34,317 bases of DNA from a virus: positions 1 to 34,317 of IMG/VR virus record IMGVR_UViG_3300032220_000556; one strand, written 5' to 3'. The notes under the pieces are model-generated. The model saw only the letters and a program-made list of their open reading frames with translations. It was not told where the DNA came from and ran no database searches. Every line of letters begins with the position of its first letter. Positions within the stretch are counted from its first letter, which is position 1. The translations under genes were made by a program, and so were the position numbers. Below, one piece after another: positions 11,726 through 15,033 of the stretch.

Positions 11726-12232
11726 ATGGCAAAAGACCCAGCAGTATTATTTTACACAAGTGATTTCCTAACAGGAACATTCACAATGAATTACGAACAA
11801 AGAGGTAAGTATATAACTTTATTATGCTTACAACATCAACAAGGTTTTCTTACTGATGAAGATTTGAAAAATGTATTAGAAGATACTGATATGAAAATAT
11901 TCAGCAAGTTTGAAAAACTATCTGATGGATTATTCTACAATATTAAATTAAAAAATGAAAGTGAAAGAAGAAAATCTTATACTGAAAGTAGAAGAAGTAA
12001 TAGACAAGGAAAGACAAAAGATAAGATTGATATATCAAAATCATATGATAAACTAATGGAAACTGTAACTGTAACTGGAACTGTAACTGATACTGTTGAA
12101 CTAGAACTTGTAACTGGAACTAAAGCTGAAAGACAAGATATGCTTGCAGAAGTTATTACAGGTAGTTTAGATAAAGAACAAAAACAAATGATGAATAAGT
12201 TTGACAATTTATTTGCAGATGAAAAACAATAA
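11726..12232 (+). CDS. DUF1376/YdaU-like replication protein, short form
   Basis: A 168-residue protein. Residues 1-75 match the DUF1376 start seen in phage replisome-organiser proteins: PAVLFYTSDFLTGT, then MNYEQRGKYITLLCLQHQ and a short winged-helix-like part ending with FEKLSDGLFYNIKL. Residues 95-145 are a low-complexity linker with alternating Thr and Val (TVTVTGTVTD), typical of such proteins. The C-terminal domain is very short. It probably helps load host helicase at the phage origin. The next gene starts 3 bases downstream. Confidence 0.65.
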   Translation: MAKDPAVLFYTSDFLTGTFTMNYEQRGKYITLLCLQHQQGFLTDEDLKNVLEDTDMKIFSKFEKLSDGLFYNIKLKNESERRKSYTESRRSNRQGKTKDKIDISKSYDKLMETVTVTGTVTDTVELELVTGTKAERQDMLAEVITGSLDKEQKQMMNKFDNLFADEKQ

Positions 12233-12235
12233 AAT

Positions 12236-12796
12236 ATGAAACAAGAAAAATGGAAATGCATTCCTGGATATAGTAAGTATATTGCATCAAACACAGGAAA
12301 GATAATGAGACTACCTGAATTAGCACCAATCCCATCAACATCAGTAACAGGTAAAACAAATGGTAGATGTGGTTTAGTATTATCACCAAGACCACTACCT
12401 AGTCAGGGACACTTACAAGTTTGTATTGCAAATGATAATGGTCAAAGAATGATGGAATATGTGCATAGATTAGTTGCATTGGCTTGGATAAAGAAAAGAC
12501 CAGGTAAAGAATTAGTCCTACACAAAGACGACAATCCTAATAATAATGAAGTAACTAATCTAAAGTGGGGAACTCATTATATGAATTCACAAATGATTAC
12601 TGTAAGAAATACAGCAAAGACAAAAGGAAAGTATATGGATAGTATGGAAAGAGTGGTTAAATTATATTATACTAATAAAGGTTCATACTCAGGTAAAGCA
12701 AAAGACTTGGTTAAAGAGATTGCAAACGATTTAGGTATTAGTGTTGCATATGTTTACTCATTGATATATCATCCTAAAGCAAAACAATTTATATAA
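12236..12796 (+). CDS. HNH homing endonuclease with NUMOD4
   Basis: A 186-residue protein. Residues 5-25 form a NUMOD4 motif (W-K-x-IPGYSKYIASNTGKI). Residues 75-121 form the HNH part: VHRLVALAW with H77, VLHKDDNPNNN with H96, then N-LKWGT. Residues about 145-180 look like a DNA-binding helix-turn-helix (EIANDLGISVAYVYSLI). It is free-standing, not in an intron. It probably cuts phage or host DNA and spreads itself between phages. Confidence 0.85.
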   Translation: MKQEKWKCIPGYSKYIASNTGKIMRLPELAPIPSTSVTGKTNGRCGLVLSPRPLPSQGHLQVCIANDNGQRMMEYVHRLVALAWIKKRPGKELVLHKDDNPNNNEVTNLKWGTHYMNSQMITVRNTAKTKGKYMDSMERVVKLYYTNKGSYSGKAKDLVKEIANDLGISVAYVYSLIYHPKAKQFI

Positions 12797-12800
12797 ATGT

Positions 12801-12831
12801 TTTGGAGAAGTGAAATATTTTAACTATATTA
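12801..12831 (+). promoter_or_regulatory. Promoter of the small RNA gene
   Basis: TTTG at 12801-12804, 20 bases, TATATTA at 12825-12831. Same boxes and spacing as the promoters at 7462, 11456 and 12998. Its predicted start, near 12837, coincides with the first base of the outer helix of the RNA that follows. Confidence 0.7.
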
Positions 12832-12836
12832 CATTC

Positions 12837-12958
12837 ATAATATGTTTTTATATAAGGTAGGTTAAAAAATACTTCATCGCTATTCAGCATTACATATATG
12901 AAGTCCTACTCAACATATTATAACCCAGCCGTTTTTTGTCATTCGTGCTGGGTTTTTT
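12837..12958 (+). ncRNA. Structured small RNA of unknown class, about 122 nt
   Basis: Flanked by its own promoter (12801) and terminator (to 12958), with no credible coding sequence. Three nested helices: ATAATATGTT (12837-12846) with AACATATTAT (12912-12921), 10 perfect pairs; GGTAGG (12856-12861) with CCTACT (12905-12910), 6 pairs including one G-U; ACTTCAT (12871-12877) with ATGAAGT (12898-12904), 7 perfect pairs. On the 3' side the second and third helices abut, while on the 5' side they are separated by a 9-base A-rich bulge. The apical loop (12878-12897) contains a possible 3-bp hairpin GCT/AGC. The terminator hairpin follows the outer helix directly. I do not recognise the class; a regulator of host or phage genes, a protein-binding decoy or an anti-defence RNA are all possible. 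Confidence 0.75.
12922..12958 (+). terminator. Terminator of the small RNA
   Basis: AACCCAGC (12922-12929) pairs perfectly with GCTGGGTT (12947-12954), 17-base loop, T tract through 12958. The strongest intrinsic terminator in this region. Confidence 0.85.
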
Positions 12959-12997
12959 GTTGCTTTGGGCCGGGAATTAATATATATTGTTATACGA

Positions 12998-13028
12998 TTT
13001 GGTAAATTAAAATATTTTTCGTATATTA
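12998..13028 (+). promoter_or_regulatory. Early promoter before second HNH gene
   Basis: TTTG at 12998-13001, 20 bases, TATATTA at 13022-13028. Fourth member of the set with identical spacing. It drives the operon 13052-15755, including the sigma factor. Its presence shows that the ATG at 13052, not one upstream, starts the HNH gene. Confidence 0.75.
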
Positions 13029-13051
13029 CATTAGTAACAAAAACATATAAA

Positions 13052-13525
13052 ATGGCAAAAACAATGACAAAAAAACAAATAGTTTTCTTTAGAGATTTAG
13101 AAAACTTAAAAGCAACTCTTCAACCTAGGTCTCAACAAATCCTTAATAATTTACCATTAGAGTCTGATTTGAAAAGACACCCAGTATTTACAACTTACGC
13201 ATCGGACAAAGATGGTAACATTTATTCTCTTAAATTTAATAAGGTTAAACAAATCAGTAAGGTTAATCACACAAGAGGATATCAACAATTTTGTATACAT
13301 GAGAATGGAGAAGGTAGAATGTATCTAGCACATCGTTTCGTATATGAATGCCACAATGGAATGATACAAAATGGTTTACAATGTCATCACATAGACCATG
13401 ACAAACATAATAATACATTGGATAACTTAAAGGTAGTAGACCAATTAGATAATATGAAATACGGAATAGAAGCAGGAGTATTATATGGTGCTGCAAATCC
13501 AAAACACCCACAATATAGAAATTAA
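13052..13525 (+). CDS. HNH endonuclease
   Basis: A 157-residue protein. Residues 90-135 carry the HNH core: YLAHRFVYECHNG with H94, LQCHHIDHDKHNN with H112-H113 and D115, then TLDNLKVV. The frame is open back to 12965, but that would cover the promoter, so ATG 13052 (MAKTMTKKQ) is preferred. It is a second free-standing homing-type nuclease, different in N-terminal sequence from the one at 12236. Confidence 0.8.
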   Translation: MAKTMTKKQIVFFRDLENLKATLQPRSQQILNNLPLESDLKRHPVFTTYASDKDGNIYSLKFNKVKQISKVNHTRGYQQFCIHENGEGRMYLAHRFVYECHNGMIQNGLQCHHIDHDKHNNTLDNLKVVDQLDNMKYGIEAGVLYGAANPKHPQYRN

Positions 13526-14276: not shown

Positions 14277-14492
14277 ATGTTATCAGAAGTTGAATTTAAT
14301 GAACTGAAAGCAGTAATGAATACTATCACTACGCACATACCCGAACATCAAACAGGATACATTTGGGACATGTATAATAAGATAGATGGTAATCATGGTG
14401 CAAGACCATGCACTTGTTCATCAGCTGCAAAGTATTGGAAAGCAGCGGTAGATACACTTAACAATTATATAAAAGTAAATGATAACAGGTAG
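14277..14492 (+). CDS. Hypothetical protein with CTCSS motif
   Basis: Seventy-one residues. Contains GARPCTCSSAAKYWKAAVDTL; small phage proteins with a R-P-C-x-C segment before an aromatic helix are common, function unknown. Overlaps the sigma factor gene by 14 bases. Confidence 0.65.
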   Translation: MLSEVEFNELKAVMNTITTHIPEHQTGYIWDMYNKIDGNHGARPCTCSSAAKYWKAAVDTLNNYIKVNDNR

Positions 14493-15033
14493 TTTATCTT
14501 TGGAGTGTGAACAAAGGTTAACCAATTTATACATTAATAGTAACGATTGGTTAATCAAACACGCTAAAAAGATTACAAAGAATAAGGAAGAAGCTGAAGA
14601 CCTTGTTCAAGAACTTTACGAATACCTACATAAGAAATGTAATCCAAAGATATTTTATGGTGTTTCCTATCATATGTTTTATTGTTATAGATTTTTGGAA
14701 AGTAGATGGATTAACAAAACCAAAAAGCTAAACCGAATAGTATACAAAGAAGAAATTCAAAGTGAAGATGTTTTTGAAGAATATGATACAGACAAAGACC
14801 AAGAGTTAGAGAAGGCACATAGAGAAGTAATTGATGAACTACAAAAGTTATCAGCAACAAGAATGTGGGCACCAGCAAAGATATTTGAACTATATTGGAT
14901 GAGTGACAAAACTTTGGATGAAGTAGCAAATGATATAAAGATTAGTAAGAGCACAGTTTTCTTATCGGTTAAAAAAATAAGGAAGTATTTAGAAATGACA
15001 TTAGACAATCCATTCAAAGTAGATAAAGAATAA
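14479..15033 (+). CDS. Phage RNA polymerase sigma factor
   Basis: A 184-residue sigma-70 relative. Residues 20-55 fit region 2 (HAKKITKNKEEAEDLVQELY), which binds core polymerase and the -10 element. Residues 143-170 fit region 4, a helix-turn-helix (KTLDEVANDIKISKSTVFLS, then KKIRKYL) that contacts the -35 element. Length and two-domain form resemble ECF-type factors. It likely redirects host polymerase to the two-box motif found before the structural genes. It is located in the middle of the early operon, as expected for a switch. Confidence 0.8.
   Translation: MITGSLSLECEQRLTNLYINSNDWLIKHAKKITKNKEEAEDLVQELYEYLHKKCNPKIFYGVSYHMFYCYRFLESRWINKTKKLNRIVYKEEIQSEDVFEEYDTDKDQELEKAHREVIDELQKLSATRMWAPAKIFELYWMSDKTLDEVANDIKISKSTVFLSVKKIRKYLEMTLDNPFKVDKE

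Follow-up and report, generated by a model that had tools for sequence, protein, structure and literature searches.

A predicted RNA between two endonuclease genes

Between two HNH genes of a phage (12236-12796 and 13052-13525) sits a predicted small RNA, and the question raised by this locus is what such an RNA would do there. The window analysed here is the whole of an IMG/VR virus record of 34,317 bases. The window terminase is 35–37% identical to those of phages of Flavobacterium, Bacteroides and Parabacteroides, so the host, which is uncultured, is likely a member of the Bacteroidota. The locus has the following layout.

12236..12796, + strand: HNH-1, the upstream HNH gene (Pfam HNH_3)
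12801..12831, + strand: host-type promoter of the RNA, with TTTG at 12801-12804, 20 nt, and TATATTA at 12825-12831 (from the sequence and its conserved spacing)
12837..12958, + strand: predicted small RNA of 122 nt (from its fold and a covariance model match)
12837-12846 / 12912-12921, + strand: H1, outer helix, 10 bp
12856-12861 / 12905-12910, + strand: H2, 6 bp
12862..12870, + strand: 5' bulge between H2 and H3, consensus UUAA-n-n-AAU
12871-12877 / 12898-12904, + strand: H3, 7 bp
12879..12888, + strand: H4, apical 3-bp hairpin GCU AUUC AGC
12922..12958, + strand: intrinsic terminator, a hairpin (12922-12954) and a T run to 12958
12998..13027, + strand: second promoter, for HNH-2 (TTTG, 20 nt, TATATT; repeat D1)
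13052..13525, + strand: HNH-2, the proposed target gene, an HNH_3 homing-type endonuclease (Pfam HNH_3, E = 2.9e-10; PHROG HNH endonuclease, E = 7.6e-24)

The host-type promoter (TTTG/20/TATATTA) claimed by a sequence-only reading of this DNA agrees with the sequence, and a TTTG..TATATT box has been found exactly 36 nt ahead of the RNA start in about 20 homologues. Several other homologues have a recognisable promoter 88–107 nt upstream, or none that can be recognised. As a result, the placement of the 5' end at the helix base, predicted at 12837 for the window, does not extend to every phage. A general sigma-70 scan returned promoter-like sites no more commonly than in shuffles, so the promoter claims rest on conservation. 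In the diverged copies L103, L108, L093, L042, L039 and L020, AATACTTTTTT- or CTTTTTTT-like stretches directly before the RNA replace TTTG/TATATT and are perhaps another promoter type.

The predicted folding energy of 12837-12958 is −29.9 kcal/mol, compared with −15.9 ± 3.1 kcal/mol for shuffles (z = −4.6; 0 of 200 shuffles as low), and the fold contains the nested 10-, 6- and 7-bp helices described before. The large bulges are all on the 5' side, save one near the apex, and the helices are stacked; in the window, the bulge at 12862-12870 has zero nucleotides opposite. The strong terminator placed at the RNA end is borne out by the hairpin and T run, and the stem sequence of this hairpin varies widely among homologues. 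The earlier statement that no credible ORF is present also holds, in that the + strand inside the RNA has no ORF of at least 40 aa. The description of the RNA as “stand-alone” is supported by its own promoter, its own terminator and the separate promoter of the downstream gene.

No tRNA or tmRNA was found, and none of 4227 Rfam 15 families scored above its gathering threshold for the RNA. A relaxed Rfam scan (12780-13060) gave no c4 match; the lone match at the relaxed threshold, to an insect miRNA family, was on the other strand and has been rejected as spurious.

Homologues and conservation of the fold

Loci were collected via the terminase and via a neighbouring protein, and about 15 copies were found by BLAST. 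A first covariance model was built from six copies with the window excluded. This model retrieves 12837-12921 at 86.6 bits (E = 8e-16) plus more than 40 others, and a second model, from 38 copies, reached diverged members. In total, about 45 homologues have been found in IMG/VR phages. The structure was set by hand and with the covariance model, as a plain MAFFT alignment misplaced the 3' arms for RNAalifold.

In the 38 structurally aligned copies, 94.9% of cells are paired, compared with 68.9% after shuffling and 27–49% with the arms slid, in an alignment that is fitted to the structure and hence favours paired counts. Compensatory double changes are seen in 24 of the 27 base pairs. They affect 9 of the 10 pairs of H1 (88.7% of cells paired), which is weak or absent in diverged members, and 5 of the 7 pairs of H3 (97.3% paired), while all 7 model pairs of H2 (99.6% paired) and all 3 pairs of H4 (96.3% paired) covary. 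The raw sequences show the compensations plainly, for example GGUAGG/CCUACU, GACAGG/CCUGUU and GGUAUCAC/GUGAUACU. It had been suggested that a covariance model be built and uncompensated helix changes sought; this has been done, and the opposite was found. The claim of a structured RNA is therefore strongly supported, and the sequence comparison likewise gives strong support to a folded shape that is kept across many relatives. An untranscribed chance or fossil hairpin is a reading to which we give almost no credence, since extensive compensatory change and the conserved promoter spacing and terminator speak against it.

The best conserved unpaired part of the RNA is the bulge UUAA-n-n-AAU, and its UUAA is present in 38 of 38 aligned copies. 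This invariant UUAA lacks a pairing partner, and it favours a reading in which the primary job of the body lies elsewhere (as a protein sponge, in RNA polymerase binding like 6S RNA, or as an anti-defence decoy) and the loop pairing described below is secondary. We consider such a role improbable. Apart from the spurious miRNA hit, the RNA has no Rfam match even at the relaxed threshold, and the gene maps examined show no defence-like context. The sequence-only reading had left the choice between regulator, sponge and decoy open; a regulator is now favoured, as the loop covaries with the start of the next gene, and no evidence has been found for a sponge or an anti-defence decoy.

Exactly one copy of the RNA is present in 13 of 16 phage records tested and none in the other 3; near-complete records with the RNA always have a single copy. 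A DNA homology search of an annotated phage collection gave only chance matches to AT-rich promoter stretches, and the same collection queried with two diverged homologues gave no match, so no isolate is known to carry the RNA. No relatives of the terminase were found in 84,980 prokaryote genomes. With the replication-type gene (described below) as bait, only two new RNAs were found in 80 loci, which shows that the RNA is not an obligate partner of this gene. The RNA is a structured family absent from Rfam and previously undescribed, in freshwater Bacteroidota-type phages.

A rearranged relative has been observed in L066 (about 1460-1790) and L068. Here the seed hairpin, which contains UGCCAU, precedes an H3-like stem, and the terminator follows both as a separate element. 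A TTTG..TATCTTTG promoter lies upstream of this relative, and the gene downstream of it is of GIY-YIG type.

Complementarity between the terminator loop and the endonuclease start

The main result, which goes beyond the earlier reading, is that the terminator loop is complementary to the start-codon region of the downstream endonuclease gene. Two segments of the window are involved.

12932..12943, + strand: proposed antisense seed UUUUUUGUCAUU in the terminator loop, a perfect 12-nt complement of 13063-13074
13051..13074, + strand: proposed target, comprising 13051-13061 (AUG 13052) and 13063-13074 (in-frame AUG 13064)

The seed can form 12 Watson-Crick base pairs with 13063-13074, over the in-frame AUG, and 11 base pairs (one of them G-U) with 13051-13061, over AUG 13052. 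Across the family, the loop segment that complements the area of the endonuclease start codon, in the gene immediately downstream, is 6–12 nt long. The loop is nearly always UGUCAU or UGCCAU, the reverse complements of AUG-ACA and AUG-GCA, while the stem varies freely. AUGAC starts are found where the loop is UGUCAU and AUGG starts where it is UGCCAU; two loci have a UGCUAU loop together with AUAGCA in the 5' UTR. Changes on both sides are seen between L138 (UGCCAUCGG/CCGAUGGCA for loop/target; UGCCAUCGGUU/AACCGAUGGCA with flanking bases) and L139, which is compensated relative to it (UGCCAUCUU/AAGAUGGCA). Between the two, three bases of the loop differ, and the target follows these changes. 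Further compensations are found in L129 and L102 (UUGCUAUU/AAUAGCAA) and, flanking bases included, in L114 (UGCCAUGUUU/AAACAUGGCA). Three loci were found after the hypothesis had been formed: L179 is changed on both sides (UAGUCAUU/AAUGACUA), L258 has a 10-nt match (UGCCAUCUUA/UAAGAUGGCA) that differs from its relatives on both sides, and L172 fits, with a loop type so frequent that this locus alone is not discriminating. Only a minority of the loop/target changes can be counted as independent events, and the loop/start pairs of L003, L103, L108, L109, L112 and L126 are weak.

The seed is predicted to be 95% unpaired in the window RNA, and the family mean is 84%, compared with 44% for the whole RNA. 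Inverted repeats in DNA would covary too, and I-TevI autoregulates via an operator over its own promoter (PMC2988022), so the paired elements could be imagined as inverted half-sites bound by the endonuclease for autoregulation. We regard such a DNA-level feature as very improbable: in nearly all loci the element occupies an exposed hairpin loop of the RNA and spans a start codon, the arrangement is common to unrelated endonucleases, and the conserved RNA body would be left unexplained.

The 5' end of the RNA (AUAUGUUUUU, 12840-12849, within the region 12837-12849) is also complementary, over 10 nt, to the HNH-2 5' UTR at 13039-13048. Family-wide, the pairing of this 5' end (AUGUUAU) with the endonuclease 5' UTR is only suggestive (z about −2.6).

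Swap test

The duplex energy of each loop with its own endonuclease start was compared with that of all swapped pairs, a procedure that conditions out the shared UGYCAU motif. The cognate mean is −10.55 kcal/mol versus −7.5 ± 0.42 kcal/mol for swapped pairs (z about −7; 0 of 20,000 permutations; n = 33), values in which the placing of the loop window by motif search and of start codons by eye leaves some bias possible, but a bias common to the swapped pairs. The signal persists when similar RNAs are collapsed (z = −6.3 for n = 19; z = −4.0 for n = 10), when one RNA is kept per distinct loop core (n = 14, z = −5.7), and in the GIY-YIG group alone (n = 11, z = −4.9). The smaller HNH groups are borderline, and significance is lost at the harshest collapse, to n = 4 (p = 0.08). 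With other segments of the RNA in place of the loop, |z| is 2.7 at most. Within its contig, the cognate site ranks in the top 3.7% of windows (median).

The covariation is specific to the endonuclease gene, in that the starts of 12 other gene families from the same phages show none with the loop (|z| ≤ 1.5). This bears on the idea that the RNA controls, in general, the translation of phage genes whose start reads AUG-RCA, with the endonuclease as one target of several. Many phage genes start ATGGCA or ATGACA, and the loop of the window copy pairs with the start of the gene at 11726, which is of replication type, at −13.9 kcal/mol versus −10.1 kcal/mol for the first HNH start; in two further loci (G005 and L061) the loop matches a replication-type gene by 9 bp. 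Nevertheless, the 11726 family is among those with which the loop does not covary (z = +0.6, n = 12), and a general regulator appears unlikely.

Proposed target genes and their orientation

The downstream genes encode HNH_3 endonucleases or zinc-ribbon proteins with a GIY-YIG signature that match PHROG homing endonucleases. A guide RNA for a nuclease of the IscB/HEARO type was considered and rejected, since the proteins encoded next to the RNA are small and belong to unrelated kinds (HNH_3 or GIY-YIG). In L052 (GIY-YIG) and L026 (HNH), the terminator loop is identical and both starts read AUGGYACAA, which indicates that the target site has outlived a change of gene family. Of 44 loci, 41 have an endonuclease in this position, so adjacency by itself is weak evidence. 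For 10 of these endonucleases no RNA was detected; 4 of the 10 loci were inspected, and no such RNA was seen just upstream.

Most of the endonuclease genes have their own promoter 12–27 nt ahead of the start, which would make their mRNA nearly leaderless and the RNA a separate transcription unit. A strict promoter match lies between the RNA and the endonuclease start in 27 of 33 loci, and in the window the stretches 12801-12840 and 12998-13037 share 78% identity.

Co-directional loci have the RNA and the gene on the same strand at a distance of about 80–130 nt, as would suit a cis-acting leader in which read-through transcripts fold and the terminator loop hides the endonuclease start, so that a trans RNA would be unneeded. 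There is precedent for this in I-TevI and SegB of T4 and in MobE of Aeh1, where cis hairpins in early/middle read-through transcripts hide the Shine-Dalgarno site (PMC2988022). A leader of this kind would make the conserved body, the strong terminator and the separate endonuclease promoter superfluous, and we hold it to be improbable. It also conflicts with G001, in which the adjacent HNH endonuclease is divergent, on the opposite strand, and its start pairs with the loop over 11 bp (two wobbles), a single case whose match ranks only third among gene starts.

G001 is one of a set of loci (G001–G005 and L061) in which the RNA points away from the neighbouring operon. Judged by its sequence, the G001 pairing would be usable only by a trans interaction, and trans action of the RNA is likely, on the strength of these few cases. 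In G005 and L061 the loop matches the adjacent replication-type gene in place of any endonuclease, and in G002–G004 the RNA is not beside an endonuclease and its match to the adjacent gene is weak. The target may therefore not always be an endonuclease.

Proposed mode of action

We consider it probable, from these comparisons, that the RNA is a phage antisense RNA that acts in trans and uses its terminator loop to prevent translation of the homing endonuclease next to it. The RNA would be transcribed from its own promoter and ended by its own terminator. The folded body (H1–H4 and the invariant UUAA bulge) would serve as a scaffold, probably for stability or protein binding, and the loop of the terminator hairpin as the antisense seed. 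We infer that the RNA is produced and that, in the cell, the seed pairs in trans, and not only within read-through transcripts, with the endonuclease mRNA, which has almost no leader. The pairing would cover the area of the start codon and repress the gene by stopping translation initiation. After replacement of the endonuclease gene, or drift of its start, loop and target would be matched anew by selection. A tentative extension, which we find conceivable without favouring it, is that one scaffold acts as a re-programmable brake, its loop being re-matched as unrelated HNH and GIY-YIG genes swap at a hot spot, and that it could silence the endonucleases of co-infecting relatives.

Relation to known systems

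RNA-OUT of IS10/Tn10 is an antisense hairpin whose loop pairs with the mRNA start of the mobile element's DNA-cutting enzyme. It is encoded opposite its target and overlaps it, which leads to long complementarity. The RNA described here is similar in that its loop is predicted to pair with the start of a mobile-element nuclease mRNA. It differs in its position, beside its target and usually on the same strand instead of opposite and overlapping the target 5' end, and in its shorter match of 6–12 bp.

The c4 RNA of P1/P7, about 77 nt long with three stem-loops, is cut by RNase P out of a transcript that also includes ant; its target is the antirepressor gene (PMC5320573). In both cases a small phage RNA lies upstream of its target and combines a conserved fold with variable specificity loops that pair, in the present family by prediction, with a translation start (PMC5320573, PMC12197685), and the variable loop of the present family is complementary to its target start, as the loop/start covariation indicates. 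Here, however, the seed lies in the terminator loop, the body is a single bulged rod, and the endonuclease target mostly has its own promoter. A transcript shared with the target, as in c4, is not indicated by the sequence (own terminator; separate target promoter in 27 of 33 loci). The Rfam covariance model of c4 gave no match at its gathering score in the window or in 11 homologue loci. By analogy, the RNA would act like P1 c4 or IS10 RNA-OUT and be a member of neither.

The T4-type hairpins also restrain translation of phage homing endonucleases through RNA (PMC2988022). They have no separate RNA gene, unlike the system described here, and the comparable cis arrangement would be possible for the co-directional loci and not for the divergent G001. 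In cyanophage S-PM2, CfrI is a non-coding RNA of about 225 nt that adjoins a homing endonuclease gene and is antisense to psbA (PMC12197685). It shares its setting with the present RNA but is not antisense to the endonuclease start.

A recent review of T4-type phages notes a lack of understanding of how translation is controlled in most free-standing homing endonucleases (PMC2988022). In the part of the literature that was searched, no trans-encoded RNA against the start of a phage homing endonuclease was found. If the proposed mode of action is true, homing endonuclease control would here fall to an antisense RNA dedicated to it, one that tracks its target through endonuclease replacement. 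Silencing of co-infecting relatives' endonucleases with a matching start would, if true, amount to RNA-based immunity in phage-phage competition. The family adds a structured RNA to phages whose hosts for the most part start translation without Shine-Dalgarno pairing. Its loop/target pairs, some matched and some mismatched, form a natural series open to testing by swaps of a few bases.

Neighbouring genes

In most homologous loci, the end of the preceding gene directly abuts the RNA promoter. In relatives, this is a replication-type gene that ends ...FDNLFGEVK and is followed immediately by the promoter. In the window and in L003, the HNH-1 ORF intervenes between this gene and the RNA and a promoter copy is retained; in the window, HNH-1 appears inserted at the extreme end of the replication-type gene (11726-12232, then 12236-12796, then 12801). 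HNH-1 is probably an insertion beside the RNA and outside the conserved module. The replication-type family (KDPA..., TMNYEQ motif) is very common, with at least 547 loci in IMG/VR, and its window copy (11726-12232) has no PHROG or Pfam match. Just before this gene, the minus strand carries a strong terminator-like hairpin, GGGGAGATTTCTCTCCCC, at 11701-11684.

Further downstream, 14479-15033 encodes a conserved protein with no relative in the annotated phage collection. It is weakly similar to sigma-70 region 2 and to the UPF0122/YlxM helix-turn-helix family, and might be a phage transcription factor.
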